A DNA stretch of 64,000 nucleotides, taken from the NCBI GenBank assembly GCA_003481745.1, contig QULP01000003.1, positions 124,001 through 188,000 on the forward strand. Reading direction: 5' to 3'. Below are positions 5,513 through 33,874 of this stretch, piece by piece. The position numbers and the translations under genes were made by a program. The DNA comes from Firmicutes bacterium OM04-13BH (lineage in GTDB: Bacteria; Bacillota; Clostridia; Lachnospirales; Lachnospiraceae). A model generated the notes under the pieces. That model ran no database searches. It worked only from the letters and a program-made list of their open reading frames with translations, and was not told where the DNA came from. The first letter of the stretch is position 1, and every line of letters begins with the position of its first letter.

Positions 5513-6409
5513 ATGAAGGGAATTATTTTAGCCGGTGGTTCCGGAACCCGCCTCTATCCTTTAACTATGGTAACTTCTAAACAGCTGTTGCCAATTTATG
5601 ACAAACCGATGATTTACTATCCGATGTCCGTACTGATGAATGCCGGCATCCGTGATATCTTAATTATTTCTACTCCGCAGGATACTCCTCGTTTTAAGGA
5701 ACTCTTAGGCGACGGACATCAATTTGGAGTGCATCTGTCTTATGCCGTACAGCCAAGCCCGGATGGACTGGCACAGGCTTTTATTATCGGTGAGGACTTT
5801 ATCAAAGATGACACTGTCGCAATGGTGCTTGGAGACAACATTTTTGCAGGTCACGGTCTGAAAAAACGCTTAAAAGCCGCCGTTGAAAATGCAGAATCCG
5901 GAAAGGGTGCAACGGTATTTGGATACTATGTTGATGACCCGGAACGTTTCGGTATTGTTGAATTTAATCACGAAGGCAAAGCTGTTTCTATCGAAGAAAA
6001 ACCGGAACATCCAAAGAGCAATTACTGTGTCACAGGACTTTATTTCTATGACAACAAAGTAGTCGAATATGCAAAGAACTTAAAACCAAGTGCACGTGGT
6101 GAGCTTGAAATCACTGACTTAAACCGTATCTACTTAGAAAACGGTAACTTAAATGTTGAACTGCTTGGTCAAGGATTTACCTGGCTTGATACCGGCACAC
6201 ACGAAAGTCTGGTTGAGGCAACCAACTTTGTAAAAACCATGGAATCCCACCAACACAGAAAGATTGCCTGCCTTGAAGAAATCGCTTACTTAAATGGCTG
6301 GATTACCAAAGAAGAGGTTCTTAAAGTGTATGAAGTCTTAAAGAAAAACCAGTACGGACAATACTTAAAAGACGTACTCGATGGAAAATATTTAGACGTT
6401 TTACACTAA
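5513..6409 (+). CDS. rfbA: Glucose-1-phosphate thymidylyltransferase
   Basis: First step of dTDP-L-rhamnose synthesis: glucose-1-phosphate plus dTTP gives dTDP-glucose and pyrophosphate. 298 aa, normal length. The N-terminal nucleotidyltransferase loop [13 protein letters not shown] (residues 6-18), GLAQAF and the metal-site VLGDN are present. AAAGGAG precedes the ATG. It is followed at 36 bases by rfbB, as the first of four co-directional genes. Confidence 0.97.
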
Positions 6410-6445
6410 TCATTATTCGCATCACGAAAAGGAGAATTTTAAATT

Positions 6446-7465
6446 ATGACAATTATTGTAACCGGCGGTGCCGGATTTATTGGAAGTAACTTTATTTTTC
6501 ATATGTTAGACAAATACCCGGATTATCGTATTGTCTGCTTAGACTGCTTAACTTATGCCGGAAATCTTTCAACACTGGAATCCGTTATGGAAAACCCAAA
6601 TTTCCGTTTTGTAAAAGAAAGCATCACAGACCGTGAAGCCGTTTATAAACTGTTTGAAGAAGAACATCCTGACATGGTTGTAAACTTTGCCGCTGAAAGC
6701 CATGTTGACCGTTCTATCGAAAATCCGGAAGTATTTCTTGATACAAACATCAAAGGTACTGCCGTCTTAATGGATGCCTGCCGTAAATATGGAATCAAAC
6801 GTTATCATCAGGTATCTACCGATGAAGTTTACGGAGACCTGCCACTTGACCGCCCAGACTTATTCTTTACAGAAGAAACTCCGATTCACACCAGCAGTCC
6901 TTACAGTTCTTCCAAAGCGGGCGCAGACTTATTGGTTCTTGCATACCACAGAACTTACGGACTTCCTGTTACCATCAGCCGTTGTTCTAACAACTACGGA
7001 CCATATCATTTTCCTGAAAAACTGATTCCGCTTATGATTGCAAATGCATTAAATGACAAACCGCTTCCGGTTTACGGAAAAGGTGAAAACGTAAGAGACT
7101 GGCTTTACGTGGAAGACCACTGCAAAGCAATCGATTTAATCATTCACAACGGACGTGTCGGTGAAGTTTACAACATCGGCGGACATAATGAGATGAAAAA
7201 CATTGATATTGTAAAAATTATCTGTAAAGAACTCGGAAAACCGGAAAGCCTGATTACTTATGTCACAGACAGAAAAGGACATGACATGCGCTACGCAATC
7301 GACCCGACCAAGATTCACAATGAACTGGGATGGCTTCCGGAAACCAAGTTTGCAGATGGAATCAAGAAAACAATCCAGTGGTATTTAGATAACAAAGAAT
7401 GGTGGGAAAATATCATTTCCGGTGAATATCAGAACTACTATGAAAAAATGTACGGAAACCGCTAA
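6446..7465 (+). CDS. rfbB: dTDP-glucose 4,6-dehydratase
   Basis: Converts dTDP-glucose to dTDP-4-keto-6-deoxyglucose with bound NAD. 339 aa. It is an extended SDR enzyme with NAD-binding GGAGFIGSNF (residues 7-16), the catalytic Thr125-Asp126-Glu127 and the Tyr153-xxx-Lys157 pair in SPYSSSK. AAAAGGAG precedes the ATG. Its product is also the substrate of the aminotransferase RffA encoded at 45246-46376, so this enzyme may feed two sugar pathways in the window. Confidence 0.97.
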   Translation: MTIIVTGGAGFIGSNFIFHMLDKYPDYRIVCLDCLTYAGNLSTLESVMENPNFRFVKESITDREAVYKLFEEEHPDMVVNFAAESHVDRSIENPEVFLDTNIKGTAVLMDACRKYGIKRYHQVSTDEVYGDLPLDRPDLFFTEETPIHTSSPYSSSKAGADLLVLAYHRTYGLPVTISRCSNNYGPYHFPEKLIPLMIANALNDKPLPVYGKGENVRDWLYVEDHCKAIDLIIHNGRVGEVYNIGGHNEMKNIDIVKIICKELGKPESLITYVTDRKGHDMRYAIDPTKIHNELGWLPETKFADGIKKTIQWYLDNKEWWENIISGEYQNYYEKMYGNR

Positions 7466-7487
7466 TTATTAAAGGAGGAAACCTTCC

Positions 7488-8384
7488 ATGAAAGTTTTAG
7501 TAACAGGTGTAAAAGGCCAGCTTGGATACGATACCGTAAATGAACTCAAAAAAAGAGGTCATACTCCAATCGGTGTTGATATCGAAGAAATGGATATCAC
7601 AGACTCTGCTTCTGTCAACCAGGTTATCAAAGAAGCAGCTCCGGATGCAGTGATTCACTGTGCCGCATGGACTGCGGTTGACGCCGCTGAAGATGAAGCA
7701 AATCAGCAAAAAGTTATGCTTGTAAATGGCACCGGAACTCAGAATATTGCCAATGTCTGCAAAGAACTTGGCATCAAAATGATGTATATTTCCACAGACT
7801 ATGTCTTTGACGGTCAGGGAGAAACTCCATGGGAACCGGACTGCAAGGACTACAAACCGTTAAATGTCTATGGAAAGAGTAAACTTGCCGGAGAACTTGC
7901 AGTATCGGAAACGCTTTCCAAATACTTCATCGTAAGAATTGCATGGGTATTTGGTTTAAACGGAAATAACTTTATTAAAACCATGCTCAAAGTTGGAAAA
8001 AATCATGATAAATTAACCGTAGTAAATGACCAGATTGGTACACCGACTTATACCTTTGACCTTGCCAGACTCTTAGTTGATATGATTGAAACAGAAAAAT
8101 ACGGTTACTATCATGCAACCAATGAGGGCGGTTACATCAGCTGGTATGATTTTGCCACAGAAATCTTCCGTCAGGCTTATGAAATCATGGGCGAGGAGGA
8201 GTATTCCAAAGAACATTTAACCGTAGCTCCTGTCACAACTGCCGAATATGGTATTTCCAAGGCAGCAAGACCGTTTAACAGCCGTCTTGACAAGGGCAAA
8301 TTAACCGCAAATGGTTTTGCACTCTTACCAACCTGGCAAGATGCATTAAACCGTTATCTTAAGGATTTAAAAACACAGGAGTAA
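7488..8384 (+). CDS. rfbD: dTDP-4-dehydrorhamnose reductase
   Basis: Last step to dTDP-L-rhamnose, reduction of the 4-keto group with NAD(P)H. 298 aa. It is an SDR with N-terminal GVKGQLGYD, a STDYVFDG motif near residue 103 and Tyr128-xxx-Lys132 in VYGKSKLAGE. The ribosome site AAAGGAGG is strong. Pathway order would be A-B-C-D; here D precedes C, a common arrangement. Confidence 0.96.
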   Translation: MKVLVTGVKGQLGYDTVNELKKRGHTPIGVDIEEMDITDSASVNQVIKEAAPDAVIHCAAWTAVDAAEDEANQQKVMLVNGTGTQNIANVCKELGIKMMYISTDYVFDGQGETPWEPDCKDYKPLNVYGKSKLAGELAVSETLSKYFIVRIAWVFGLNGNNFIKTMLKVGKNHDKLTVVNDQIGTPTYTFDLARLLVDMIETEKYGYYHATNEGGYISWYDFATEIFRQAYEIMGEEEYSKEHLTVAPVTTAEYGISKAARPFNSRLDKGKLTANGFALLPTWQDALNRYLKDLKTQE

Positions 8385-8389
8385 ATAAA

Positions 8390-8998
8390 ATGGGACAGAT
8401 TAAAGTTGAAAAAAATGCAGGTGGTATCGAAGGACTCTGTGTAATCGAACCGACTGTACATGGAGATGCCAGAGGATATTTCATGGAAACCTACAATCAG
8501 AAAGATATGATAGAAGCCGGACTTACCATGAATTTTGTACAGGACAATCAGTCCAGTTCTACCAAGGGAGTCTTACGTGGACTTCATTTCCAGAAAGAAT
8601 TTCCACAGGGCAAACTGGTGCGTGTGGTAAAAGGCTCTGTCTTTGATGTCGCCGTTGATTTAAGAAGTGACAGCAAGACTTATGGAAAATGGTTTGGTGT
8701 GGAACTGACCGAAGAGAACAAAAAACAGTTTTATATTCCGGAAGGCTTTGCACACGGATTTCTTGTATTAAGTGACATTGCAGAATTCTGCTACAAATGT
8801 ACTGATTTCTATCATCCGGGAGATGAAGGCGGTCTTGCATGGAACGACCCGAAAATCGGTATCAAATGGCCAAAATTAATCGGTACTTATAATGGCACTG
8901 CATCTTCTGAAGGCTATGTCTTAGAAGACGGCACTGCATTAAATTTAAGTGACAAAGACCAAAAATGGCTTGGGTTGGCAGATACCTTTAAATTTTAA
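8390..8998 (+). CDS. rfbC: dTDP-4-dehydrorhamnose 3,5-epimerase
   Basis: Epimerises dTDP-4-keto-6-deoxyglucose at C3 and C5. 202 aa, close to the usual ~185-200. A cupin fold is indicated by the active-site RGLHFQ (His66) and FYIPEGFAHGF motifs. It starts 5 bases after rfbD and ends the operon before a strong two-way terminator. Confidence 0.96.
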   Translation: MGQIKVEKNAGGIEGLCVIEPTVHGDARGYFMETYNQKDMIEAGLTMNFVQDNQSSSTKGVLRGLHFQKEFPQGKLVRVVKGSVFDVAVDLRSDSKTYGKWFGVELTEENKKQFYIPEGFAHGFLVLSDIAEFCYKCTDFYHPGDEGGLAWNDPKIGIKWPKLIGTYNGTASSEGYVLEDGTALNLSDKDQKWLGLADTFKF

Positions 8999-9020: not shown

Positions 9021-9059
9021 AAAAAAGAAAGAGGACAAATCGCCCTCTTTCTTTTTTTA
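9021..9059. terminator. Bidirectional Rho-independent terminator between rfbC and the rhamnan operon
   Basis: Inverted repeat AAAAAAGAAAGAGG / CCTCTTTCTTTTTT around a short loop, with an A-tract on one side and a T-tract on the other. It can stop both converging transcripts. The stop codon of the minus-strand gene at 9057 lies inside the T-tract. Confidence 0.85.
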
Positions 9060-17700: not shown

Positions 17701-19167
17701 TTAATGCAGACCATTATAGTTCTGAAGATATAATGGATACAACAGTCTTGCCCATAAAAACAGTGCAACTACAATTGTTCCTATTGAAACCAGATAATAG
17801 CAAAGCTGTTTTAATTTCTGATTTTTAATAAAATGGTCTGCGACTCTTGAATATCCCATCGTTACAAAATACATCATCGGAACTAACATCGGCATGCTGT
17901 AGCGTCCCTGTGGCTGATAATCTGAAGTATAAGAATAATATAAGTTCAAAACATTCGGAATTATCATTCCAAGTAAAAGACACAGATGGAATAATCCCTG
18001 CGGACGGATTCCTTTCTGACGGATTAATACCTGTTCTACGGTTTCTTCTTCATTAATTTTCTTCTCAAGCATAACCTGCTCTCGTTTTAAATAGAAAATA
18101 TCTCTTGCTTTCCAGATTACAAATACCAGCCCGACAAGAATCAATGCAAAATATGGATAATACACTTTTTTTCCAAGAAAGATCTGATTGTATCCAAAGA
18201 TTCCAACTACCCCATAGACTACCATTCCAACCCAGCGGTACTTAAAACCGGGAGCATGATATTTTAACATCGAGATAATGTTTGCCTCCGGATAATCCTT
18301 AAATGTCGTTACATTTTTGGGATTAAACTGTGGCTTTGCATATTTGATTGCATACTCATGCATGGTTTTTCTTGCAAGAAAATCTCCATCATAGATGATA
18401 TAGTTTCTTACAAACCACCATCCGGCAAGCACTGCGACAACTGCCGTGATTAACAGACCTCTTTTGAACATTAATTTAAAATCTGGTTTCTTTTTGCCAT
18501 AGCCAAGGGAGGAAACGACAAAGAATAAAATACTGCACAGTGCATAACCATAAGCATCATAATAGGAAAGCGCACAAAGTGATAATGCAACTCCAAGCAG
18601 AATACTGTTCTTCTTTGTCCAGCCCTCATTCATTGCCCTCACCCACATATAAATAATAAACGATGAGGAAAATAAGGCAAGTCCGTCACAATTGATATAA
18701 GTATATAAAATTGCAGCACCGGGAAGCAGGGTACAAAGGAAAAAGAACATCACCCTTTCTCCTTTTTTGAATAATGCTTCTCCGATTTTAAAAATACAAT
18801 ACGCTGACGCTGTTCCGAATAGAACATTAACCATTCTTGCAGAAATCAACAGTGCCCATTCATCTGTCGTAAAAAATGAAGTAATCTTCATAAACAACGC
18901 AGAAATCATGTAACTTAAAATCGGATTAAACGCATACGAAATTCCCCAATCTTCATCTCTTATCTCGGGGTCTCCACCGTGCGGCAGTTTTCCATGCTCA
19001 TAGATATACTGCACGATTCGGGAACGCATCCCTTCATCGGGTGAAAAATTATGCCTCTGACTGCAGGCCCATGCCAGATAAATTCCAAATACCAGAAGCA
19101 GGGCAAAAATCATGCAGACTGTCCGTCCAAGTTTCTGTTTATTTTTGAATTTTCTGCTCATCTTCAT
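17701..19167 (-). CDS. Polytopic membrane protein, GT-C-type glycosyltransferase candidate
   Basis: 488 aa, about ten hydrophobic segments. The first extracytoplasmic loop has an acidic SPDEGMR motif and HGGDPEIRDED, as in GT-C enzymes and DUF2142-type proteins, which use lipid-linked sugar donors outside the membrane. It starts at an ATG with AGAGGA 6 bases upstream and overlaps the previous gene by 29 bases. It probably adds side groups to the exported glycan; donor unknown. Confidence 0.65.
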   Translation of the reverse strand: MKMSRKFKNKQKLGRTVCMIFALLLVFGIYLAWACSQRHNFSPDEGMRSRIVQYIYEHGKLPHGGDPEIRDEDWGISYAFNPILSYMISALFMKITSFFTTDEWALLISARMVNVLFGTASAYCIFKIGEALFKKGERVMFFFLCTLLPGAAILYTYINCDGLALFSSSFIIYMWVRAMNEGWTKKNSILLGVALSLCALSYYDAYGYALCSILFFVVSSLGYGKKKPDFKLMFKRGLLITAVVAVLAGWWFVRNYIIYDGDFLARKTMHEYAIKYAKPQFNPKNVTTFKDYPEANIISMLKYHAPGFKYRWVGMVVYGVVGIFGYNQIFLGKKVYYPYFALILVGLVFVIWKARDIFYLKREQVMLEKKINEEETVEQVLIRQKGIRPQGLFHLCLLLGMIIPNVLNLYYSYTSDYQPQGRYSMPMLVPMMYFVTMGYSRVADHFIKNQKLKQLCYYLVSIGTIVVALFLWARLLYPLYLQNYNGLH

Positions 19168-20377
19168 GAATTCCTCTAAGAATTGCCTCTTTTACTTTTT
19201 CTGCTTCTCTTTCCCATGAAGTATTTTTTGCAAATTCCAGACCTTTTTTACGGATTGAAGCTAATTTTTCCGGGTGTTTGAAGTAATCTTCCATTGTATC
19301 TGCAATCTGATTCGGGTCATAATCTACTAAGATAGAATTTTCTTCATTGACAAGCCAGGTGCTGTTTTCTCCTTTCGAGCAGACTGCAACAGAGTTACAA
19401 GCCATAACTTCAAGTGGCAGCAGGGACAGGTTTGTGTTTGAAATAATCAGACACATATCACATTTTACATAAGAATCTGCAAGTACCTGTGGTGTTACAG
19501 TTCCAAGATTCTGATGTGGGAATGGAATTTCATAGTTGCTGACATCCCATCCTGCAAAAATAACCTCTAAGTCCGGCATTTTCTTCCATAATTCATTGAT
19601 TGCCAGCATACCAAGCTCAAAGTCACGTCTTGGAGTAACCGGTCTTGCATAGAAGAATACTCTCGGTTTGTCATCTGTTTTTTCTTTTGGTTTGTAAATC
19701 TTGTCATCGTAAGAGAATAAGAAACTATCTGCTGTCATGCCATAATCGTTTCTCATTACATCTTTTAACCAGTCACCGGCAGTAATTCCACGAAATCCCA
19801 TTTTATAAGTATTTTCTGCAAACTCATATTCTGAACCATGTGCATAGAAATACGGCTCAAAGTCCTGTACAAAATAAAATTTAGAAATGGTATTATTAAA
19901 TCTTCTGACATAGTAAGCAGTGGTCCATGCAGTTGCAACTGTACCGTGTGCAAATCCCATCTGAGATACATCACAGTAAACTTCTACTCTCTCATCTAAC
20001 AGTGGGAAATGCTGTTTTAAGAAACTGCGGATGGACTCATTATCTTTAAATGTCGGAGACATATACAGATAAATTTTGCTGTGAAAACCTAATTTTTCCA
20101 AATTTGATACAAAACGGAAAATTGTGGTATGTCCGCCTGAACCCGGACTCATTTCCGGAATGACCCAGTTTAATGTGATTTTTCCAGTTTTCTTTGCCTC
20201 TTCATACGCCTTTTTATCAAATGGAATTTCTTCTGTATTGACTACAAAATTATAAAATCCAAGCAGATTATTCTTTGGCGGAATCGGTGCAGGTCCGTTT
20301 TTCATACGTTTTAATGTTGCTTTCACGCCATTATTTTTTAAATATCTCATTCCTCTTTCTACTACATTATCGCTCAT
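19139..20377 (-). CDS. WsaF-like rhamnosyltransferase (GT-B fold)
   Basis: 412 aa from the ATG at 20377, which has AAAGGA 7 bases upstream; an upstream GTG at 20395 has no better signal. It contains LNWVIPEMSPGSGGHTTIFR, FVQDFEPYFY, FFYARPVTPRRDFELG and NLSLLPLEVMACN. These match the pattern I know from WsaF, a rhamnosyltransferase of Bacillaceae S-layer glycan assembly. It is consistent with the dTDP-rhamnose genes next door. No membrane segments. Confidence 0.75.
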   Translation of the reverse strand: MSDNVVERGMRYLKNNGVKATLKRMKNGPAPIPPKNNLLGFYNFVVNTEEIPFDKKAYEEAKKTGKITLNWVIPEMSPGSGGHTTIFRFVSNLEKLGFHSKIYLYMSPTFKDNESIRSFLKQHFPLLDERVEVYCDVSQMGFAHGTVATAWTTAYYVRRFNNTISKFYFVQDFEPYFYAHGSEYEFAENTYKMGFRGITAGDWLKDVMRNDYGMTADSFLFSYDDKIYKPKEKTDDKPRVFFYARPVTPRRDFELGMLAINELWKKMPDLEVIFAGWDVSNYEIPFPHQNLGTVTPQVLADSYVKCDMCLIISNTNLSLLPLEVMACNSVAVCSKGENSTWLVNEENSILVDYDPNQIADTMEDYFKHPEKLASIRKKGLEFAKNTSWEREAEKVKEAILRGIHEDEQKIQK

Positions 20378-20405
20378 TCTTTTTTCCTTTCTCACCTAAG
20401 ACCAG

Positions 20406-21377
20406 TTAAGCCTTTCTTTGTCTGTACTGCTGTGAAATATGTTTGTCCAGAAATTTCTGTTTTGCTTCCGAATAAGTATGGTACTTTCCGCCAAGTGTCC
20501 CCCCGACAAAACGGTCGAAATTACGAAATGCGGAGTAAATAGCCCATTTGATTTTTGTTTTCTTTCCAATCGGCTGTTGACGGATGTAAGCACAGTCTCC
20601 TCTGACCTGACGCACCCAAAGACGTGGGAGCTGTCGAAAATGCTGTGCCATCATATACTGATGAATTTCATAGAGACCTTTATATTCATCATAATATCTT
20701 GCAAAGTAAGTACTTAATTTAAAGTTGTGAGAATGATAAACCGGTGCAAACGGGCAGTATACTTTTTTATAACCCAACTCGATCATCTTTCTCGCCCAAA
20801 TCTGATCCTCTGCAAAATTAACATCATCATAAGGATGCTGTTCAAATACATCTCTTCTGACACAGGAATTATTATCTGAGAAGAAAGCAAGTACATGTCG
20901 ATATCCTTCTTCTCTTTCATAGCGTTCCTTATCTTCCATATAAAAAATCGTATTATCAGAACCAAATCCCTGAAATAATCCTTCAATATCTCTCTTATCT
21001 ATAAAATTACAGCCTGGATAAGGATAATGGATTCCAAATCCACCCACCACTTCCGGGTCTTTTTTCATGGCATCAATAAAATTCTGAAGCCAGGTGTCCG
21101 TTGCAGGAAGTGCATCCTGTGTAATAAATACAATATAAGTTCCTGTTCCCTTAGAAGCCCCGTAATTTCTGGTTTTTCCATGTCCAAATTCTGATGCCGG
21201 AATCTGATATAATTTGCACGGATATTTTTTAATTACCTCAAGTGTCTGATCTTTTGAACCGGAATCCACACAGATAACCTCATATTCATAAATGGTTTTC
21301 TGGGAAAATATCATATCCAGCACTTTTTCAAATAAAGAACCTGCATTCTTAGTAGGAATTACAATGGATACGTCCAT
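20406..21377 (-). CDS. GT2-family glycosyltransferase, probable rhamnosyltransferase
   Basis: 323 aa. GT-A motifs: SIVIPTKNAGSLF, VDSGSKDQT, FGHGKTRNYGA and FITQDALP as metal-binding region. The FGHGxTRN motif and QDA variant are frequent in bacterial alpha-rhamnosyltransferases. It is 4 bases upstream of the start of the WsaF-like cistron region and directly downstream of the kinase-like gene. Confidence 0.82.
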   Translation of the reverse strand: MDVSIVIPTKNAGSLFEKVLDMIFSQKTIYEYEVICVDSGSKDQTLEVIKKYPCKLYQIPASEFGHGKTRNYGASKGTGTYIVFITQDALPATDTWLQNFIDAMKKDPEVVGGFGIHYPYPGCNFIDKRDIEGLFQGFGSDNTIFYMEDKERYEREEGYRHVLAFFSDNNSCVRRDVFEQHPYDDVNFAEDQIWARKMIELGYKKVYCPFAPVYHSHNFKLSTYFARYYDEYKGLYEIHQYMMAQHFRQLPRLWVRQVRGDCAYIRQQPIGKKTKIKWAIYSAFRNFDRFVGGTLGGKYHTYSEAKQKFLDKHISQQYRQRKA

Positions 21378-21380: not shown

Positions 21381-22724
21381 TCAATTACCCCTTTTCACTA
21401 TTTTACGTACTTTTTGATACATCTTATAGACTTTTAAATTTTCAAGCTGTCGGATTTTTTCTGCCTGATATTCTACGGTCGCCTGTAAGTCATTTAACTC
21501 TTTTCCAAGTTTGGCTATCCTGGCTTCGTGTGCTGCATTTTTTTCAGTCAGCATCTGTCTCTCATCTTTTAACGCTTTCTCATTCTGAATAAATGTCACC
21601 ATCTGGTCAATGACACCATCATTTCTGCGATAAACCAAATAATCAAATTCGATTTCTTCACATCCACCAAGTGCGATTTCAAGTACCGGTGGTTCTATGA
21701 AATAATAATCATCAATAATCACCAGTTTTGCATTATGAGTAAAATTCAAACTGACTTCCTGTTTTTCTTTCTTTCCGACCAGTTTCCTGATTTTTATAAT
21801 ACTTTTAGAATCCACCGGTTTGAACCGAAGTCTGGTATATTGGTTTGCTTTTAATTGAATCGTTCTCTTAATCTCAGAATGAATGGTCTGCTCGTAGCTG
21901 ATTTCTTCCCATTCTTCACCGGTATCTCCCTCGATACCGATAGAAAAGAACTGTTTCTTATAATCCCATTCACTGACAGGATAAGATTTACAGTGCATTT
22001 TCTGGTACAGATGGGACAGGGCATATTTTTCGCCTTTTCCAGCCACATGTTCTTGGAAGTTCACTTCCATTTGATAATAAACCGGCACTTCTTCCATATC
22101 TACACGGCCAATTGCATAGAGTTCTTCTAACTGACTCTTATCTAAACCGCAGACTGCTTCCTGCAAGAAAATGCTTCTTGCATAGATAAATTCTAATGGA
22201 ATCTCAAAGAAAAAGACCCATTCATAATCTGCCAGCACACATTTTTTACCAAGCAGAAGATTTGCCGGAATCATATCAACATTGGAAATATCTGCCGAAT
22301 GTTGCGCTTCTTTAAACTTTGGAAAGCCAAAAATTTCTTCAAATGCCGGACTGCTCTCGAATGTATGCATTCCTTTTACGGAAAAAATAATCTTTGCAAG
22401 AAAACGATAATCCTCTTTCAAGGCTTCATAGTCATTTGCTTCTGAATGGCGGTGGATTCTTTCTTCTAAGCTTTCCCCCTCCACAAATAAAAAACGGACC
22501 TGACCATTTTCCTCTTTGCATGGACACATTTCCACACCTGAATTTACAAATAATTCCGAAAGCAGTTCTCGGGATTCGACCATCTTTCTTACATGGGCTT
22601 CTCCCTCTTTATGCATCGCTTTTTTTATGACCGATTTTTCTCCGTTTTCTTCTACAATCATCGTTGCAATCTGAAATTTTTTCTGACGGTCTTTTGAAAA
22701 TTTTGAATATAATATCTCAGGCAT
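21381..22724 (-). CDS. Kinase-like protein with C-terminal coiled coil (WbdD-kinase-like)
   Basis: 447 aa. Residues about 15-200 show a eukaryotic-type kinase pattern: Lys34/35 (VIKKA), an acidic EGEAH helix at 40-44, a catalytic-loop-like VDMIPANLLL with Asp150 and Asn155, and a DFG-like ADYEW with Asp166. A middle beta-rich part (240-370) is unassigned. Residues about 380-440 form a heptad-rich coiled coil (KNAAHEARIAKLGKELNDL). The gene overlaps the methyltransferase gene by 8 bases and has a strong AGGAGG. E. coli WbdD is methyltransferase plus kinase plus coiled coil in one chain and caps O-antigen with methyl phosphate. Here the same parts appear split over two cistrons beside wzt. The family call is inferred from motifs. 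Confidence 0.6.
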   Translation of the reverse strand: MPEILYSKFSKDRQKKFQIATMIVEENGEKSVIKKAMHKEGEAHVRKMVESRELLSELFVNSGVEMCPCKEENGQVRFLFVEGESLEERIHRHSEANDYEALKEDYRFLAKIIFSVKGMHTFESSPAFEEIFGFPKFKEAQHSADISNVDMIPANLLLGKKCVLADYEWVFFFEIPLEFIYARSIFLQEAVCGLDKSQLEELYAIGRVDMEEVPVYYQMEVNFQEHVAGKGEKYALSHLYQKMHCKSYPVSEWDYKKQFFSIGIEGDTGEEWEEISYEQTIHSEIKRTIQLKANQYTRLRFKPVDSKSIIKIRKLVGKKEKQEVSLNFTHNAKLVIIDDYYFIEPPVLEIALGGCEEIEFDYLVYRRNDGVIDQMVTFIQNEKALKDERQMLTEKNAAHEARIAKLGKELNDLQATVEYQAEKIRQLENLKVYKMYQKVRKIVKRGN

Positions 22725-23652
22725 TGTTTTCCTCCTTTTTCTGAATTTCTACAAAAAAGGAATTGGAAAAATGCGGGAATAATTCAGCACTAATCATGGT
22801 ATCAAAGGCAAGTCCCTCATCAAAAAGCAACAGACGCTCTGCATCAAAATTTCGGCGGTTATTCCGCAGTTCTCCTTTTTTTGGAAGATAAGAATCTGAA
22901 TAAATGGTTGTTGCAAATTTATAATCCGGATAAGGATAATAGAACCGATAATTGTGATAGCCATTTGCATCGAGCAGTTTCTCTAATTCTCTTTTGCTGA
23001 ATGTCTCTACTCCGGATGTATTTTTATAGCCTTCAATTCCTTCAAACATCCGACCGACATGGTCTTCTTTACAGCCTGCAAAGTATTTTAGTCCCAGCTT
23101 ATTTTCAATTGCCATCAAAATCTTTCCATTCGGTTTTAAATGACGGTTGATTTTATCTAAAAATACCCGATATGGCTCTTCTTCCTGAATATAAGTCTTT
23201 GCATACTCAAACACGCCAATCAAGGTAACATAATCAAAGGTTTCTGTCAGATTATCAGATACCGTATTAAAGTTTCCGACTACAATCTCCAGATTTTCTG
23301 CCTCTTTATTCTTCCATGCATTAATTGAACTTCTCATCTTAGACAGGTCATTTGCCACAACCCGTCCGGCTTTTTTTGCAAGCACACCAGAGATTGCACC
23401 ACATCCGGCTCCGATTTCAAGCACGGAATCTTCCTTTGTTATCGGATACCACTCTAAAATATTCTCTCTTTGCTGTGAAAGATGATACATCACAGCCCAG
23501 TTTTTTTCTTTTAAGATAATATCCTGATACTCTTCAGGTTCGTGATGTTTCACCAGCTCTAACAGATGCTCTTCAATCACACCGTCACTGTAAAAATCCT
23601 GACCTTCATAATAGTCCAGATTTAATGTAACTTTCCCAATCTTTTCGTTCAT
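22717..23652 (-). CDS. SAM-dependent methyltransferase, candidate glycan chain-capping enzyme
   Basis: 311 aa. Class I fold with motif I VLEIGAGCGAISG (residues 77-89), acidic loop VANDLSK, FDYVTLIGVFEY and LKPNGKILMAIEN. An N-terminal extension of about 70 residues includes NWAVMYHLSQQRENIL, which may bind acceptor. It lies between wzt and the kinase-like gene and overlaps the latter by 8 bases, so the two are probably made in fixed ratio. A role in methyl capping of the exported glycan is inferred from position and from the WbdD and WsaE precedents. Confidence 0.75.
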   Translation of the reverse strand: MNEKIGKVTLNLDYYEGQDFYSDGVIEEHLLELVKHHEPEEYQDIILKEKNWAVMYHLSQQRENILEWYPITKEDSVLEIGAGCGAISGVLAKKAGRVVANDLSKMRSSINAWKNKEAENLEIVVGNFNTVSDNLTETFDYVTLIGVFEYAKTYIQEEEPYRVFLDKINRHLKPNGKILMAIENKLGLKYFAGCKEDHVGRMFEGIEGYKNTSGVETFSKRELEKLLDANGYHNYRFYYPYPDYKFATTIYSDSYLPKKGELRNNRRNFDAERLLLFDEGLAFDTMISAELFPHFSNSFFVEIQKKEENNA

Positions 23653-23676: not shown

Positions 23677-24993
23677 TTATTTCGTTTGTATTGCCCCGTC
23701 ATAAGAAACCGTTGAATTCAAATCAAAGAAACCAAGCGTTCCCTCTTTCTTTGAAAAGACTTCAAGGTGGCAGGCATTATAAAGTCTGTGATAAATCTCC
23801 AAATCATCCCCATTATAACCGGTACAACCAAAAGAAAGAAAATACTGCCCTGGCTGAAGCGTCATAATCTGGTCAAAATTAACGATAACGATCTCCCCTG
23901 CCTTACAGTGTGCCGGTGTATAATTTTCCAACATGGTATTGGTACCTGTAATTTCCGTACCTTTTCTGTCTTTAATCGTATAAGCAAAAATTGGATGGTC
24001 CACATCTTTTTTAAACTGAATCTTCATCTTAATACGGAACTGTTTATTTTTATCTACGGAAGAACTGATTTCTCCCTTATCATTCACAATTGCAAAATCC
24101 ACAATCTCTGCATCCAGACTTCCATAAGAATCCAGATTGCTGTTTAAAGTTAATTTACTCTTCCAGCCTTTTGCTTCCTGTTTTTCTTTCGTTTCTGTTT
24201 CCTGAGTTTCTACCTCTGTAGTTTCTTCCTGTTCTTCGTCCTTTGCACTGTCATCATATTGATTTGCAAGGATTTTCTTATATACATCCACTGCTTCTGC
24301 GGACGTTCCGGTCAGTACATGATGTCCGTGATGAATCAGCATACTTCTTTCACAGTATTTGATAACACTTCCCATATCATGCGTAACAAAAATAATTGTT
24401 TTTCCTGCTTCTTTAAATTCATTGAATTTACGGTAACATTTCGACTGGAAGAAAATATCTCCAACGCTCAATGCTTCATCGACAATCAAAATATCCGGCT
24501 CTACATTGATAGCAACTGCAAATGCAAGGCGGGCAAACATACCGCTCGAATAAGTCTTACATGGCTGATTGATAAAATCGCCAATCTCTGCAAAATTAAT
24601 AATATCATCAAGTTTTGCTGTCATCTCTTCTCTTGAAAACCCAAGCATGGTACCATTCAGATAAATATTTTCAATTCCCGTATATTCCATATTAAAGCCG
24701 GCACCCAATTCAAGAAGCGCACTGATTTTCCCATTGACGGTAACACTTCCGGTTGTCGGACTTAATACACCGGTAATAATCTTTAACAGCGTAGATTTTC
24801 CGGAACCGTTTGTTCCGATAATTCCAACACATTCTCCCTTATGCACATCAAGTGAAATTCCCTCTAAGGCAAAATGATCCTGATGATAGCTCTTATGCGT
24901 AATAGACAGGGATTCTTTCAGCCTGTCTATCGGTTTATCATATAATTTGTATACTTTACTGACATCTTTAATTGATACTACAATATCGTCCAT
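23677..24993 (-). CDS. wzt: Polysaccharide ABC transporter ATPase with C-terminal carbohydrate-binding domain (Wzt)
   Basis: 438 aa. ATPase domain 1-250: Walker A GTNGSGKST (residues 60-68), signature YSSGMFARLAFA (148-159), Walker B ILIVDEALS (168-176). An acidic linker (about 250-275) leads to a beta-sandwich of Wzt_C type (about 285-435) with IKMKIQFKKDVDHPIFAYTI and PGQYFLSFG. In O9a-type systems this domain recognises the capped glycan end, so its presence next to a methyltransferase and a kinase-like protein is meaningful. GGAGG precedes the ATG. Confidence 0.92.
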   Translation of the reverse strand: MDDIVVSIKDVSKVYKLYDKPIDRLKESLSITHKSYHQDHFALEGISLDVHKGECVGIIGTNGSGKSTLLKIITGVLSPTTGSVTVNGKISALLELGAGFNMEYTGIENIYLNGTMLGFSREEMTAKLDDIINFAEIGDFINQPCKTYSSGMFARLAFAVAINVEPDILIVDEALSVGDIFFQSKCYRKFNEFKEAGKTIIFVTHDMGSVIKYCERSMLIHHGHHVLTGTSAEAVDVYKKILANQYDDSAKDEEQEETTEVETQETETKEKQEAKGWKSKLTLNSNLDSYGSLDAEIVDFAIVNDKGEISSSVDKNKQFRIKMKIQFKKDVDHPIFAYTIKDRKGTEITGTNTMLENYTPAHCKAGEIVIVNFDQIMTLQPGQYFLSFGCTGYNGDDLEIYHRLYNACHLEVFSKKEGTLGFFDLNSTVSYDGAIQTK

Positions 24994-25002: not shown

Positions 25003-25800
25003 CTACAATACATCTGAGAAATGTACTCTTAATCTACGGAATACAGTAAATCCAATCACTCCGATAATTAAAGTTACAACCCAGAAGTAAATCGTCATCT
25101 TTGGTCTCTCAAAGAACCAGATTCCATCCATGAAACTGTCACGATATCCCTGTACAACATAATACAGCGGATTTAATTTTAAAAGAAATTCAACTTTTGC
25201 AGGCATTTTAAACGTTGACATATCCCACATAATCGGGCATGCCCACATACCAACCTGCATCAGGATATTGATAATCGTTCCAAAATCTCTGAAAAACGGT
25301 ACGATGGAACAGGTAAAATAGGCAATCGCAGTAATTAGACAGATTGCGCAGATTGTATAGTAGCCAAGCTGAGCCATCTGAACAATCGGTGTCTTTCCCA
25401 TAATAATATAGATAAAAATCGCAAATGCAATAAAAAACAAATGTACAAATAACGCCGATAAAATTTTTACAAGCGGAAGTACACTGATTTTAAATACGAC
25501 TTTCTTTACCAGATAACTATATTCCATCAAACAGTTGGTTGCATTGATAATTCCCTCTGAAAAGAAAAACCAGGGAATAATACCTGCAATCAGCCACAGC
25601 GCATACGGATATCCGTTTGGCGTATCCATAACGCGAAATCCAAACTGGAAAATAAAAATGTAAATCAAAATTGTAACCATAGGCTGTACAAAGGCCCATA
25701 AAATCCCAAAATAAGAACCTGCATACTTTGTTTTGAAGTCATTTTTACCCAGTTTCCACACCAGGGTCTTGTTTCTCCACAATTCTCTAAATATGTTCAT
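25003..25800 (-). CDS. wzm: Polysaccharide ABC transporter permease (Wzm)
   Basis: 265 aa, six predicted membrane segments, ABC-2 type. An N-terminal amphipathic stretch LVWKLGKNDFKTKYAGSYFG and an FFRDFGTI motif near residue 170 are typical. With Wzt it exports a finished polysaccharide, here probably the rhamnan. It is the first gene of its transcription unit, 9 bases before wzt, behind an extended -10 promoter. Confidence 0.92.
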   Translation of the reverse strand: MNIFRELWRNKTLVWKLGKNDFKTKYAGSYFGILWAFVQPMVTILIYIFIFQFGFRVMDTPNGYPYALWLIAGIIPWFFFSEGIINATNCLMEYSYLVKKVVFKISVLPLVKILSALFVHLFFIAFAIFIYIIMGKTPIVQMAQLGYYTICAICLITAIAYFTCSIVPFFRDFGTIINILMQVGMWACPIMWDMSTFKMPAKVEFLLKLNPLYYVVQGYRDSFMDGIWFFERPKMTIYFWVVTLIIGVIGFTVFRRLRVHFSDVL

Positions 25801-25925: not shown

Positions 25926-26702
25926 CTATTTGTCAATTCTATAAATACAATACTCATCAATTTTTGCGATTTTTTCGTATTCTTCTTCCGCATACCAGTC
26001 CATGGTATGCTCTTCTGAAAGTACAAGATAATTACAGCCGGAAAGAGCAAGCGCTTCCCGAAAGGTCTCTTTATCCTGTTCTTCATTATTAATCACATCA
26101 TACACAATCGCAGCTTCCATGGTATCGGTTCTTGAATCCTTGCCTGCATCGCGTCCATAAATCAGGTGAATCGACGGGTCATACTGTCTGACATAAGAAA
26201 TCAGCTCATCCGGAACAATTGCCCGAATTTCCTCTCCATCGGCATTTTTTTTCATTGCATCACACACACCAAGCACGGTCTGTGGCAGTTTATAATAATT
26301 GGTTGATTTATGAAATACATCTTTGTTGTAAACCAGCCGACCACTAAAGGCAAGTCCGGACAGCATCAGCACTGCCAGTACCACTGCAAAAAGTCTGTTC
26401 TTTAACTGTGAGATACACGATACAGCAAAATAAGCAATCACAAACGTAATCGGAAGCAGCCAGAACATTCTCCAGTAAACCGTCTTTCCAATTGCATAGT
26501 CCATAATAATTTTTGCCGTATACGGAATCCAGTACAAAATCAGTCCACCAATACAGTACCAAAACAGATAACGGTTATATTTCCTTCTCTCTCTTAAAAA
26601 CAAAAGCAGAACCATACAGCCTAAAAAGAGATACAGGTAAAATCCCTTTCCATTATAATGCTTCCAGAAAAATTTAATCAAATCAAATACTTCACTACTC
26701 AT
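25926..26702 (-). CDS. Membrane protein of unknown function, possible C-terminal half of a GT-C-like protein
   Basis: 258 aa. Four membrane segments (about 20-35, 46-62, 74-93, 102-120) are followed by a soluble, probably extracytoplasmic domain of about 135 residues that ends IDEYCIYRIDK. It overlaps the upstream gene by 4 bases (ATGA). The layout of helices then a soluble tail is that of the second half of some polytopic glycosyltransferases, and the preceding gene supplies only helices. I do not recognise a named family. Confidence 0.6.
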   Translation of the reverse strand: MSSEVFDLIKFFWKHYNGKGFYLYLFLGCMVLLLFLRERRKYNRYLFWYCIGGLILYWIPYTAKIIMDYAIGKTVYWRMFWLLPITFVIAYFAVSCISQLKNRLFAVVLAVLMLSGLAFSGRLVYNKDVFHKSTNYYKLPQTVLGVCDAMKKNADGEEIRAIVPDELISYVRQYDPSIHLIYGRDAGKDSRTDTMEAAIVYDVINNEEQDKETFREALALSGCNYLVLSEEHTMDWYAEEEYEKIAKIDEYCIYRIDK

Positions 26703-27760
26703 CCCATTCCCTCAACTCTTAACAGCAGATAAATTCCTGTCAGTATGATACAAGGAATACATCCAGCCAGCAATTTCCATGCTATTCCTATTTTTCTTGT
26801 CTGTATGATTCCCGCAAATGCCCCAAGCGCCACCATAATCGGTGCTAAGAAAATTCCCATGGAAGAGGTCAGCGCTGCTGCTCCTGTCGTCAGAAAAATC
26901 TGGATAATATCCTGAATTTGATACTCATTTTTATAAGCACAAAGCAGATAATAAAACAACAATGGAAGAATCACTGCTGCCAGGACTGCTTTTCCCTGCC
27001 AGATACGAATCAGTAAAAAAGTAGACATCGTATACACGGAATAATAACCAAATATATTCATCCATGCCAGGAAAAGTAAGAACAATCCTCTCTCTTTTCT
27101 TTTATTTTTCCAGAAAAAACTGCCCAGCAGGTCATAAACAAAATAAGCAACCGGAAGAAAAATCAAAAACATTCCCGTATGTCCCAAAACGGTTGAAGGT
27201 ACTCCATAAAGCCTGCTTAAACCCGCTTCAAAAATTGGAAATGGAGATAATACATAACGGCTTGGAAGGGACTCGTACTCATCTCCTGTATACGCATTGT
27301 ACTGAAACACCGTATCTGTCTCGAGAGTTGTTGACGCCGTCGCTACATAAAAAGCATCATCATCGTCAATGTGTGTGTAAAAAATCCCTGCATACATCTG
27401 AACGACTATTAAGACAACCGCCGGAAGATACCAGAGTCTGCTTCCTTTTTGTTTTTTCGTTTCCTGTTTCTTAAACCGGATTAATCTCATAATAAAATCC
27501 CAGTTTTGAACAATCGAACTGACAAACAGCACCACCGAGATTCCCAGTACCAGCCAGTAAAGCGTATGAAATTTCCATCGAAAGAAAACTGCACACAATG
27601 CCAATATTTCAAATAAAAAGAAAAATAATATCATTCCACCCATAAGCAGTTCTGTAATTTTTTTCGTCCGCTTTGCCGGTGTATGAAATCCTATGACAAT
27701 CAAAAACAACCAAAATGCCACTGTGAACAGTATCATTTTTACAATTGATACAACTTCCAT
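26699..27760 (-). CDS. Polytopic membrane protein of unknown function (paired with the downstream gene)
   Basis: 353 aa, about nine hydrophobic segments. The third loop has YTHIDDDDAFYVATAST, an acidic motif like the catalytic first-loop aspartates of GT-C glycosyltransferases. It ends at TGA inside ATGA, which also starts the next gene. It begins at the ATG immediately after the stop of the small choline-binding protein (TAAATG). Probably a side-chain transferase or part of the polymerisation machinery; no family name assigned. Confidence 0.6.
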   Translation of the reverse strand: MEVVSIVKMILFTVAFWLFLIVIGFHTPAKRTKKITELLMGGMILFFFLFEILALCAVFFRWKFHTLYWLVLGISVVLFVSSIVQNWDFIMRLIRFKKQETKKQKGSRLWYLPAVVLIVVQMYAGIFYTHIDDDDAFYVATASTTLETDTVFQYNAYTGDEYESLPSRYVLSPFPIFEAGLSRLYGVPSTVLGHTGMFLIFLPVAYFVYDLLGSFFWKNKRKERGLFLLFLAWMNIFGYYSVYTMSTFLLIRIWQGKAVLAAVILPLLFYYLLCAYKNEYQIQDIIQIFLTTGAAALTSSMGIFLAPIMVALGAFAGIIQTRKIGIAWKLLAGCIPCIILTGIYLLLRVEGMG

Positions 27761-28312: not shown

Positions 28313-29668
28313 CTATGCCTGTTTTTTCTTGATATCATTTATTTTACAGCACAGATACGCCATTGTCATCCAGAAAATATAATGAACACTTGAGTTTGCA
28401 TATAAGATTCTGGATTCCATAAAATCCGATAGTAAAATTCCACCGCAAAGCCCCATTAAAATAAATGTCGATGTATCTGTTTTTGTGAAAAGTGCTCTTA
28501 CAAAACGGATAAATACCATAATTAAAAAGACGAATAAAATTCCAAGTCCTACGACACCAGATGCTACCAGCGTTGTCACATAGACATTGTGAAGTCCGCC
28601 ATTATGAAGCGCCTGTGCGGTTCCTTTATCTAAATCTCTCTTTGCATATTCATAGATGCAATTTGCACCTGCACCAAATACAGGAGAATTTTTCCAGACT
28701 TTTAATCCGGCTTTCCAGATTTCCACTCGTCCGTTGCTGACACTGTTTGCATCTTCTTCTTCAAAAAATTCTTCGGTTCTTACAATTTCTGTTTTCTCTT
28801 CCTGTCCTTTCAAAGAACTTACTGCATCCGGAATCAATACAATGGTATGTTTTACAATCGGAGAGAGTGCCAACACACAGGCAAAAATGACAACTGACTT
28901 TAAAAGACTCTTTATGCAGGTTTTCCTATCCTTTGTGACTAGATTCTCTCTTTTGACCCAGACAAATCCAATTACAATCAGAATAAAAAAGACAAACGCT
29001 CCATAAGCACTTCTTGACTGTGTTAAAATCAGATACAGATATTGAATTACAATATTTGCAATCAGAAGTTTTTTCTTTTGTACTGACTTGTTTATCAGAT
29101 AAAGAGAAAATGCCGTGGAAATCACCGCCATCATTCCACCAGTGTTCGGGTTGAATAAGCCCCAGAGACGATTTTCAAACATTCCAAGATACTGATATCC
29201 ATTCGGAAGTTCATAGCACACTTGAACGGAAAGTAAAAATGTAATTAATGCAATTGAGGCATAAATAAGCGGCATAATCACATTCATCCAGGAAAAGATT
29301 TTTATTTTCTTTTCCACTTCCTCTTCCTCTTTCTGCCAGTACATATTAAAAACTAAAAGCAGTGAAGTGGTCATATAACCAAACGTAAAAATATTGCTGC
29401 TTAATTTGGTTCTCCAGTTTACAAGTATCGTGATTCCATTTGCAACACAGAACAAAAACAAGACCAGTGCAAATTTATTTTCCAGATAAGCTCTGTAGTT
29501 TTTTATCAAAAAGATGGCAAGCAAAACCGCTCCCCATACCAGACCTGCTTTTCTGAAAACTCCAAGATGAATCTTCAAAAATGCCGGTGCTCCAAGATAA
29601 GCAATTAACAGCATATACATGGCAAACCAGAACGGATCGCTTATCATCTTTCGTATATCGAGTTTCAT
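28313..29668 (-). CDS. O-antigen ligase/polymerase-like membrane protein (Wzy/WaaL family)
   Basis: 451 aa, about eleven membrane segments. A large extracytoplasmic loop (about 270-365) contains the family hallmarks NGRVEIWKAGLKVWKNSPVFGAG and NGGLHNVYVTTL, with Arg and His. LTQSRSAYGAF is the usual motif before it. With the flippase at 36337 and the WbaP-type initiator at 34857 it completes a Wzx/Wzy-type pathway that polymerises or ligates lipid-linked repeats outside the membrane. Confidence 0.87.
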   Translation of the reverse strand: MKLDIRKMISDPFWFAMYMLLIAYLGAPAFLKIHLGVFRKAGLVWGAVLLAIFLIKNYRAYLENKFALVLFLFCVANGITILVNWRTKLSSNIFTFGYMTTSLLLVFNMYWQKEEEEVEKKIKIFSWMNVIMPLIYASIALITFLLSVQVCYELPNGYQYLGMFENRLWGLFNPNTGGMMAVISTAFSLYLINKSVQKKKLLIANIVIQYLYLILTQSRSAYGAFVFFILIVIGFVWVKRENLVTKDRKTCIKSLLKSVVIFACVLALSPIVKHTIVLIPDAVSSLKGQEEKTEIVRTEEFFEEEDANSVSNGRVEIWKAGLKVWKNSPVFGAGANCIYEYAKRDLDKGTAQALHNGGLHNVYVTTLVASGVVGLGILFVFLIMVFIRFVRALFTKTDTSTFILMGLCGGILLSDFMESRILYANSSVHYIFWMTMAYLCCKINDIKKKQA

Positions 29669-29722
29669 ATTATAATTTATCCTTTCTTATACACGCTCGT
29701 TTACAAAAACTTTGAGCCTGCC

Positions 29723-30706
29723 TTATTTTTCAAAAGAAGATTTTTCCGGAAAATAAGACTGTAATAATTTTTTCAGCCATTCTTTTTCTTTTTCAAACTC
29801 AAGTTCCGGTTTATCGTCACTTAAACATAACATTTTATATTGTTTTGTCTTCAATGCCTGTTCAATGAGTTCATCGTCTTTTCCAATCGAATAAAATTTT
29901 CCAATATAAGGATTTCCAGGCTCGAACTGTCCTTTGGCAAACTGCCAGTAACGGCACAGCCATTGATTGACATCCATATTATTTCTCAATTTATGTTTAC
30001 AGGTTTCCTCTAATACTTCCGGTTCTTTCTCCCAGACTTCCTCAAACGTACTCTTTAAATATGCAAGCGGAATATGTGGATTGACAAATCCAGGAAACTG
30101 TTTGACCCCTAACATATAGATATTTTTTAATAATAATCGTTTATAATTTAAGGAAAACCATTTCTTGCGGTATTTTTTCAAAGTATCTTTTTTCAGAAAG
30201 TGGTCGTTTAATAATTCCAAATCGTTTGCAACAATGTGGTCAATTCCACCTTTTTTAAAGACATGTACTCTCTCAAGCGGACAGTCGCATGGCAGACCGT
30301 TTTTAAAGAAATGTTCCGGTCTCATCGGTGCAACAAAAAAAGTATCATCATTCGCATAGATAAAATGCTCTGCTAAATCTGGAATCCTATGTAAATTCAG
30401 TTCAATCACATGGGAGTTATAGGTAGGAAGATATTCTTTTGGAATATAATCGGTATGTTTTACAATATTTAATTTCGGATGATTTGCTTTCATCCATTTC
30501 GGTACATGCCCCCAGGTGATAAAATGAATCTTTCGAATCCATGGAAGATTTTTTTCAATTCCACGAAACAGATATTCCAGATTATCCCATTCACGGAAAC
30601 GGTTTGCACGTCCGTCTCCCTCTTCCTCTTTTAAGCAGGCTCTTTTTTCGGCAAGCCACTTCGGGTCGTTGCCATCGACCCATGGGATTACTAAATCAAT
30701 TTCCAT
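29723..30706 (-). CDS. Stealth-family hexose-phosphate transferase
   Basis: 327 aa. Conserved region 1 DLVIPWVDGNDPKW (residues 4-17), region 2 with YLFRGIEKNLPWIRKIHFIT and FIYANDDTFF, and HIPLAY further on. Stealth proteins transfer sugar-1-phosphate to make phosphodiester-linked polymers such as capsules. The start overlaps the end of the GT4 gene by 11 bases. This predicts phosphate in the backbone of the second polymer. Confidence 0.88.
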   Translation of the reverse strand: MEIDLVIPWVDGNDPKWLAEKRACLKEEEGDGRANRFREWDNLEYLFRGIEKNLPWIRKIHFITWGHVPKWMKANHPKLNIVKHTDYIPKEYLPTYNSHVIELNLHRIPDLAEHFIYANDDTFFVAPMRPEHFFKNGLPCDCPLERVHVFKKGGIDHIVANDLELLNDHFLKKDTLKKYRKKWFSLNYKRLLLKNIYMLGVKQFPGFVNPHIPLAYLKSTFEEVWEKEPEVLEETCKHKLRNNMDVNQWLCRYWQFAKGQFEPGNPYIGKFYSIGKDDELIEQALKTKQYKMLCLSDDKPELEFEKEKEWLKKLLQSYFPEKSSFEK

Positions 30707-31805
30707 GTTTCATCCCTCTCTTTTCCAGTATTTTTTGAATCGTATTAAGCATCTTTTCAAGACTTACTTCACTTTGTAATAACACTTCGGTTTCCGAACA
30801 TTTTTCAGAATGGAGTTCTTTTAATACAGCCTCCGCCCATTGTTTCTCTCCTTCCTCTAAAGAAAGAAAATGCATCTCTTTTGTCAGTCCCATTTCTTTT
30901 GGAACGGCTTCTTTGCTTCCAAAAGTCGGAAGTCCTGCTGCCTGTGCTTCAATCAGTGAAATCGGATACCCCTCAAACAGCGACGGAAATACAAATACAT
31001 TCATCACCTGAAGTACATCGGGCACATCTCTTCTGACCCCAAGAAAACGAACAGAGTCACGGATTCCAAGTGCTTCTGCCTCTTCTTCTAACTGTTTTTT
31101 CTGAGCTTCATCTCCGCCTCCACATAAAAGCAGAACGGCAGACGGCTCTTTTTTTTGAATTTCCTGAAAGATGCGAAATAAAAAGCTGTGATTTTTCTCT
31201 TTGGAAAGGCGTCCTACATGACCTACAACCGGTTCGTCTCCAAGTCCCAGTTCTTTGCGCATCTTCTCTTCTCGTTCTTTTGTGTAAGTATATTTTCGGA
31301 TATCGACTCCGTTTATAATAATCTGTGCTTCTTTCGCTTTCTCCCCAAACATCCAGACACCCGCTTCTTTCGAGCAGGCTAAGAGCTGATTGGCATAATT
31401 TGCCACCTGACGTCTGTTTTTCTTATGCATAAACAGCGTAAATTTTGTTCCTCTGTTTTCAGAGGAATGAGAATGGACGATCCGAAGCGGTACCTGATTT
31501 TTCTTTGCCGATTTTAAGGCTTCAATATTACTAATCGTTGTTTTGTTGGTCCAGAATACATCATACTGTGTCTGTTTAAAAATGGTATCCAGCTCTTTTC
31601 TTGACTGAAGAACACTTTTAGAACGTGGAGTCACATGATAAACCTTAGATCCGCCTGCTTTTAATTCGTCTTCAAACACAATCTCATCGTCATAAGCGAT
31701 AAAATCCATGCGATAGCTCTCACGGTCGAGTCCACGGTACACAGACATGATAAAAGCTTCCATTCCACCAAGCTGTCTTGACATTCCTTCAATTAAAATA
31801 TTCAT
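30696..31805 (-). CDS. GT4-family glycosyltransferase (EpsF-like)
   Basis: 369 aa, two Rossmann halves. N-terminal MNILIEGMSRQLGGMEAF with its acceptor-side glycine loop, middle VVGHVGRLSKEKNHSFL, and donor-site FPSLFEGYPISLIEAQAAGLP with the E-x7-E pattern. Retaining enzyme, cytoplasmic. It starts 2 bases from the CDP-glycerol transferase gene. Confidence 0.88.
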   Translation of the reverse strand: MNILIEGMSRQLGGMEAFIMSVYRGLDRESYRMDFIAYDDEIVFEDELKAGGSKVYHVTPRSKSVLQSRKELDTIFKQTQYDVFWTNKTTISNIEALKSAKKNQVPLRIVHSHSSENRGTKFTLFMHKKNRRQVANYANQLLACSKEAGVWMFGEKAKEAQIIINGVDIRKYTYTKEREEKMRKELGLGDEPVVGHVGRLSKEKNHSFLFRIFQEIQKKEPSAVLLLCGGGDEAQKKQLEEEAEALGIRDSVRFLGVRRDVPDVLQVMNVFVFPSLFEGYPISLIEAQAAGLPTFGSKEAVPKEMGLTKEMHFLSLEEGEKQWAEAVLKELHSEKCSETEVLLQSEVSLEKMLNTIQKILEKRGMKHGN

Positions 31806-31807
31806 AC

Positions 31808-33016: not shown

Positions 33017-33026
33017 AAGCCACTCT

Positions 33027-33839: not shown

Positions 33840-33874
33840 TTCCCAATTCTCCGTTTTTCTTTCTAATCCATTTC

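Follow-up and report, generated by a model that had tools for sequence, protein, structure and literature searches.

A kinase and a methyltransferase on separate chains as a probable polysaccharide terminator beside a Wzm-Wzt exporter in a Lachnospiraceae genome

How might chain growth be ended for a polysaccharide that a Gram-positive bacterium exports by a Wzm-Wzt transporter, and what part would be played by the two overlapping genes that stand directly beside the transporter genes? The question is raised by a stretch of 64,000 nucleotides (hereafter the window) from Firmicutes bacterium OM04-13BH, a member of the Lachnospiraceae, in which a methyltransferase (MT) gene is followed by the gene for a kinase-like protein. 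A sequence-only reading had taken the pair for a split, WbdD-like module that caps a Gram-positive rhamnan and measures its length. Here, we describe the pair and its relatives and argue that it is probably a two-polypeptide chain terminator for the polysaccharide exported by the adjacent Wzm-Wzt system. The two genes and their parts are as follows.

22717..23652, minus strand: class I SAM-dependent MT, 311 aa, first cistron of the putative terminator pair (ORF and sequence)
23398..23418, minus strand: MT motif I EIGAGCG, residues 79-85 (sequence; intact in the window, changed in some relatives)
23059..23088, minus strand: MT motif KYFAGCKEDH, residues 189-198, mostly common to Gram-negative terminator MTs
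22717..22724, minus strand: 8 bases shared by the end of the MT gene and the start of the kinase gene (sequence)
22731..22737, minus strand: Shine-Dalgarno sequence AAGGAGG of the kinase gene, within the MT gene (read from the sequence)
21381..22724, minus strand: kinase, beta-sandwich and coiled-coil protein, 447 aa, second cistron (ORF, homologues, predicted model)
22035..22724, minus strand: APH-like kinase domain, residues 1-230 (predicted model, structural matches, alignment, profile comparison)
22623-22625, minus strand: kinase K34
22275-22277, minus strand: kinase D150
22260-22262, minus strand: kinase N155
22227-22229, minus strand: kinase D166
21624..21947, minus strand: predicted beta-sandwich, residues 260-367 (model; placed as the Ig-like CBM of ORF6^O7)
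21441..21617, minus strand: coiled-coil helix, residues 370-428 (predicted model)
21384..21440, minus strand: residues 429-447, a basic tail of mild amphipathicity (permutation p 0.043 for the helical moment)

The two cistrons, their 8-base overlap and their products, an intact class I MT and a kinase-like coiled-coil protein, were confirmed as first read. The shared bases read ATGCCTGA in the mRNA, AAGGAGG sits 6 bases before the kinase ATG, and the genes look like two translationally coupled cistrons. Programmed frameshifting across the overlap was considered and dropped, because the kinase gene has a strong Shine-Dalgarno sequence of its own and no slippery heptamer was seen when the overlap was read by eye. 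At the other end of the kinase protein, the tail carries a net charge of +7 over residues 429-446 and may be a membrane anchor.

The Wzt gene lies 24 bases upstream of the MT gene, with the Wzm gene beyond it, and the kinase gene is followed downstream by a GT2 gene and then by a WsaF-like glycosyltransferase gene.

23677..24993, minus strand: Wzt-like ATPase of the polysaccharide exporter (domain search)
23719..24132, minus strand: Wzt_C domain, presumed cap reader (Pfam PF14524, E 2.7e-43)
25003..25800, minus strand: Wzm-like permease (Pfam ABC2_membrane)
20406..21377, minus strand: GT2 glycosyltransferase adjoining the kinase gene (domain search; order kept in close relatives)
19139..20395, minus strand: WsaF-like glycosyltransferase, rhamnosyltransferase fold family (Pfam WsaF_C/WsaF_N)
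5513..8998, plus strand: rmlA, rmlB, rmlD and rmlC for dTDP-L-rhamnose (NCBIfam, above NCBI cut-offs)

The claimed position beside a Wzt whose C-terminal domain is of the cap-reading type holds, rhamnose genes are present in the window, and the exported polymer is probably rich in rhamnose. The rml genes could serve either of two polymers, since the Wzm-Wzt cluster is adjoined by a second polysaccharide cluster of the Wzx/Wzy type (28313-38564), which encodes a Wzy_C polymerase/ligase, a flippase, a sugar-phosphate transferase, LicD, Stealth and a CDP-glycerol transferase. Slightly upstream of the exporter genes is a gene for a DUF6077 protein (26699-27760, E 6.9e-110). Other parts of the window encode a MerR-type regulator joined to a SAM-dependent methyltransferase domain (4158-5405), a phosphoglycerol transferase-like protein of the sulfatase fold with two GBS Bsp-like repeats near its C-terminus (9057-11234), and secreted proteins with long cell-wall-binding-like repeat arrays (38763-52723), which were named by eye as metallo-beta-lactamase-like, amidase-like and L,D-transpeptidase-like. 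Two tRNA-Leu(cag) genes of equal score (3812-3899 and 4045-4132) are possibly a recent duplication.

A kinase fold had been proposed for 21381-22724, and structure prediction indeed gave an APH-like fold, with APH(3') and LicA among the best structural matches. K34, D150, N155 and D166 are invariant in 45 of 45 aligned kinase sequences. Comparison with Pfam (also for the 45 members), NCBIfam and PDB sequences brought up no credible family, and JAK1 stretches among the best PDB sequence matches were set aside as chance-level. Profile comparison matched the kinase to ORF6^O7-type kinases (98.0%, E 2.9e-13, 199 columns; 0.2% or below in three controls), the Gram-negative alignment consisting of 27 rows, namely two plasmid proteins and 25 chosen from the 120 matches listed; against one ORF6^O7-type member alone the value was 96.1%, with five shuffles at 1.5% or below. 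The link to ORF6^O7 is bridged by a Pseudomonas asturiensis protein and published residue numbers: D150/N155/D166 align with D443/N448/D461 of the Pseudomonas protein, in which the six published MT residues of ORF6^O7 are all present at identical numbers and the catalytic Asp is residue 443, as against 441 in the published ORF6^O7 numbering (PMC11231755, in excerpt). An Arg of the Pseudomonas protein faces K34, so that the ATP-binding lysine is not common to the whole family. A Citrobacter protein compared weakly with the kinase profile (44.2%, 92 columns) and gave no match in an hmmsearch with it, and the comparison of the beta-sandwich with the Gram-negative Ig-like module was likewise weak (11.5% over 32 columns). 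Clusters with an ABC permease, an ATPase and a terminator are found on a Pseudomonas asturiensis plasmid (L098) and, together with rml genes, on a conjugative Citrobacter braakii plasmid (L097).

Among 47 homologues found with the kinase protein, P0034 (767 aa) bears an N-terminal MT. When P0034 itself was the query, 7993 candidates were scored and 3204 proteins reached E 1e-3 or better, of which those further down may match by the MT only; the best 120 are 590-831 aa long, except for seven GT2-bearing ones of 1238-1341 aa, and they cover 73-100% of the query apart from one at 41%. Gene order was surveyed in the best 80 of 240 loci, for which DYEWVFxF and ME[VE]xFQ[EKN][YF][VA] had served as seeds. 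MT and kinase are separate adjacent genes in 58 of the 80 (29 with a kinase ORF of at least 900 aa, many GT2-bearing), fused in 20 (8 of at least 900 aa), and an MT is absent nearby in 2, both at contig edges. Fused versions thus exist in relatives, and the module of the window is 'split' in that MT and kinase occupy two chains, but it is not odd in this. Upstream, a Wzt gene was found in 73/80 loci, at most 3 kb away in 66 and at a greater distance in 7; of the loci without Wzt, three have room for it upstream and four lie near a contig edge, and Wzm is present in 62. The eight query genes of the window, from Wzm to a double glycosyltransferase, recur in order in L001-L006, L008 and L012 (the last gene being cut in L006). 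Kinase D-x4-N and DYEW occur in 80/80 loci, a count that is biased, above all for DYEW, because the seeds picked the loci and the best 80 of 240 were kept. Some kinase domains come with further modules: P0045 carries Pfam PF05045, and in P0046 and L017/L021 the kinase domain is found with GT2 modules.

The pairing extends across the family. At a threshold of E 1e-4, a kinase-only alignment matched 150 of 298 genomes of the family of a Blautia MAG (G001) and 13 of 398 genomes of its phylum. The window MT had a match (1e-20) in 88 of 200 genomes of the same family, and the kinase was present in 88/88; in 30 of 30 loci examined the kinase match lay at most 88 bases from the MT match, and in 28 of these 30 a Wzt gene lay at most 900 bases upstream. 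Conversely, in the part that was compared, 15 of 103 kinase-positive genomes had no MT match, two of which (G408 and G414) are listed as searched, while the other 13 are presumed misses.

The MT half is clearly related to its Gram-negative counterparts: alignments of clostridial and Gram-negative ORF6^O7-type MTs match at 100% in hhalign (E 6.2e-68, 280 columns), and the window MT shares 33-34% identity with the two Gram-negative MTs. The state of the MT was scored in 77 of the 80 loci, a set picked by kinase and not by MT, leaving out L021 and L038 (without MT) and L066 (truncated), and motifs were called lost where neither GxxEY nor EDH was found at the aligned place. Motif I, GxxEY and EDH are all kept in 45 MTs and one is mixed. 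GxxEY and EDH are both absent in 31 of 77, beside kinases with intact motifs; 22 of these 31 have also lost motif I (an altered example reads LLQVGSDYG), and 9 retain it. The loci concerned are:

L026, L028, L030, L031, L033, L036, L039, L042-L046, L048, L050, L052, L053 (first part)
L055-L061, L064, L067-L069, L073, L075, L077, L079 (second part)

L075 is a mild case, with EEH for EDH. Twenty-seven of the 31 fall into one supported clade (98/95) that includes Hungatella, Lacrimispora, Enterocloster and others, and on the tree the motif-lost label requires four changes. By their motifs, these MTs would be inactive.

Taken as a terminator, the pair could work as follows. The kinase protein would add phosphate to the growing lipid-linked chain at its non-reducing end; the terminal phosphate would block more glycosyl transfer, so that chain growth stops; the MT would then methylate the terminal phosphate; and Wzt_C would recognise the cap, with the result that export is restricted to finished chains. 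The kinase protein would probably use its coiled coil and basic tail to keep the terminator in a membrane complex. The evidence for this reading consists of the predicted fold, the invariant catalytic residues, homology to the ORF6^O7 type in two domains, gene order and co-occurrence; from it we infer the reaction, its order, the sugar, cap reading by Wzt and a complex of MT and kinase protein. Phosphorylation looks like the core step, because the kinase accompanies the MT in every MT-matched genome, while two fifths of the scored MTs (31/77) have lost their motifs. A cap with 'possibly phosphate', as first proposed, was thus too weak a wording for what is the more constant half of the module.

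Could the cap instead be methyl only, with the MT acting on a sugar hydroxyl, as WsaE and the WbdD of E. coli O8 do, and the kinase-like protein serving as no more than a scaffold? WsaE, whose cluster includes Wzm-Wzt, does cap a Gram-positive rhamnan with a 2-O-methyl group (PMC2943079, in excerpt), and O8 WbdD is described as a simple methyltransferase (PMC3482155, in excerpt). Yet it is the catalytic residues of the kinase that are invariant (45/45), and it is the MT that loses motifs in a set picked by kinase; when picking is by MT, the kinase is there in all 88 genomes, and the window kinase is homologous to a proven kinase type, ORF6^O7. We therefore consider a methyl-only cap unlikely. 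A kinase that phosphorylates a sugar inside the chain or, in the LicA/APH manner, a small molecule, and sits behind Wzt as a matter of operon convenience, would fit the best structural matches, APH(3') and LicA, as well as the nearby LicD, Stealth and CDP-glycerol transferase genes, which show other phosphate decorations; an independent kinase of this kind is nevertheless improbable because of the pairing with the MT in 88/88 genomes, the fusion in 20/80 loci and the homology to ORF6^O7-type proteins.

The sequence-only reading had likened the kinase to WbdD, and a true Gram-positive WbdD, split but of direct descent and with its coiled coil as ruler, would have in its favour the domain order, the Wzm-Wzt-terminator gene order of E. 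coli HS O9, the D-x4-N spacing of WbdD D351/N356 and Foldseek matches of the fused P0034 model to 4azt (568 columns, rank 27, E 1.3e-7) and 4ax8 (580 columns, rank 37, E 2.2e-7), alignments that are loose (TM 0.17 by query, rmsd 17-19). Kinase homology to WbdD was, however, not detected: a single WbdD sequence gave 0.1% against the kinase profile in hhalign, where a single ORF6^O7-type sequence gave 96.1%, and 0.7 bits in hmmsearch, with none of this on the kinase domain. MT similarity to WbdD extends over 78 columns only (88%), and the coil is short and variable. WbdD is also absent among the 50 Foldseek and 50 VIA matches listed for the kinase protein, which does not speak for a different fold; the 50 VIA matches listed for the P0034 model are all taken up by the MT domain. 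True descent from WbdD is accordingly disfavoured and, to us, highly improbable, and the closest relative, judged on sequence, appears to be the ORF6^O7-type terminator. Of the original interpretation, the cap module beside Wzt and the predicted kinase fold are supported, and a kinase that is WbdD-like in sequence is not. The tail after the beta-sandwich has 78 aa in the window and 41-85 aa over 26 aligned sequences, and a measuring role is the weakest part of the claim because the coil is short in the window and variable among relatives; a function as chain-length ruler is unproven. Co-evolution of cap and reader is likewise not claimed. The partial correlation of the kinase with Wzt_C is 0.45, versus 0.27 with the ATPase part (74 sequences; Mantel permutation p 0.0005), but among divergent pairs the values of 0.15 and 0.14 are too close to carry it.

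A broader and more tentative reading, which we regard as conceivable rather than likely, is that the Lachnospiraceae in general use kinase-based, Wzt-read capping of their surface glycans in at least two chemical forms, a methyl phosphate and a phosphate-only cap. Chain growth would then be ended by phosphorylation, and methylation would be a swappable label to be matched by Wzt_C. Methyl phosphate would occur where the MT is intact (the window, Blautia and Fusicatenibacter). With the same reserve, the Hungatella/Lacrimispora/Enterocloster clade might have phosphate only, the MT having decayed to a non-catalytic partner while the kinase stays.

The kind of terminator is already known from Gram-negative bacteria, and the window probably holds its Gram-positive two-polypeptide form. 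That systems of this sort serve Gram-positive glycans has been noted in general terms (PMC3482155, in excerpt). The holders of ORF6^O7 relatives named in the excerpted part of PMC11231755 are alpha- and gammaproteobacteria, cyanobacteria and Methanoculleus, and the words 'Gram-positive', 'Firmicutes' and 'Bacillota' are absent from its main text. Our literature search turned up no such kinase reported for a Gram-positive bacterium; neither did it find, in the excerpts available of PMC3482155, PMC11231755, PMC2943079, PMC12413058 and PMC11127046, a description of the two-polypeptide kinase form and its frequency in the family, or of MT motif loss beside a kept kinase. A cluster of 23 genes is described for the R. 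gnavus glucorhamnan (PMC12413058, in excerpt). If the reading is true, the cap-and-check logic of O-antigens governs how a widespread gut family makes and exports its surface glycans, and polymers such as those from Blautia and Fusicatenibacter can be examined for a defined end group (methyl phosphate or phosphate). Separate genes allow kinase and MT to be removed singly without cutting a fused protein, and the clade in which the MT seems to have been lost allows a comparison as to which group Wzt reads.

Among known systems (the papers cited here being used in excerpt), APH(3') aminoglycoside kinases and the choline kinase LicA share 8% and 14% identity, respectively, with the window kinase and have other partners and another context. 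WsaE of the Geobacillus stearothermophilus S-layer rhamnan (PMC2943079) resembles the module in its Gram-positive host, Wzm-Wzt exporter, rhamnan, MT-based cap and WsaF-like neighbour, but is set apart by its description as an MT with two GT domains and a 2-O-methyl cap, no kinase being reported; that architecture was not encountered in the window, which has a kinase protein and no GT fused to MT or kinase. WbdD of E. coli O9a and K. pneumoniae O3 (PDB 4azs, 4ax8; PMC3482155) has in common with it the order of MT, kinase and coiled coil (on one chain in the fused relatives, on two in the window), the gene order, the catalytic Asp/Asn/Asp pattern and the presumed logic; it differs in being one chain, in a coil that is a demonstrated ruler (PMC11231755) and in the beta-sandwich, which is predicted for the window module, whereas PMC11231755 places a CBM in no terminator besides ORF6^O7. 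ORF6^O7, the Klebsiella pneumoniae O7 terminator described in 2024, adds methyl phosphate to a rhamnose-ended acceptor and in vitro yields phosphorylated and methylated-phosphorylated products, with none from D441A (PMC11231755). Its MT, APH-like kinase, coiled coil and ABC-transporter pathway have their counterparts in the window, where a beta-sandwich is predicted in the place of its Ig-like module and rml genes are present; ORF6^O7 acts on a rhamnose end, and the homology of MT and kinase runs through a Pseudomonas relative that itself follows an ABC permease and ATPase. ORF6^O7 is one chain fused to two GT2 modules, whereas the window has two proteins, no fused GT2 and a cluster of the Gram-positive type; clostridial relatives of the window module include fused and GT2-fused forms.
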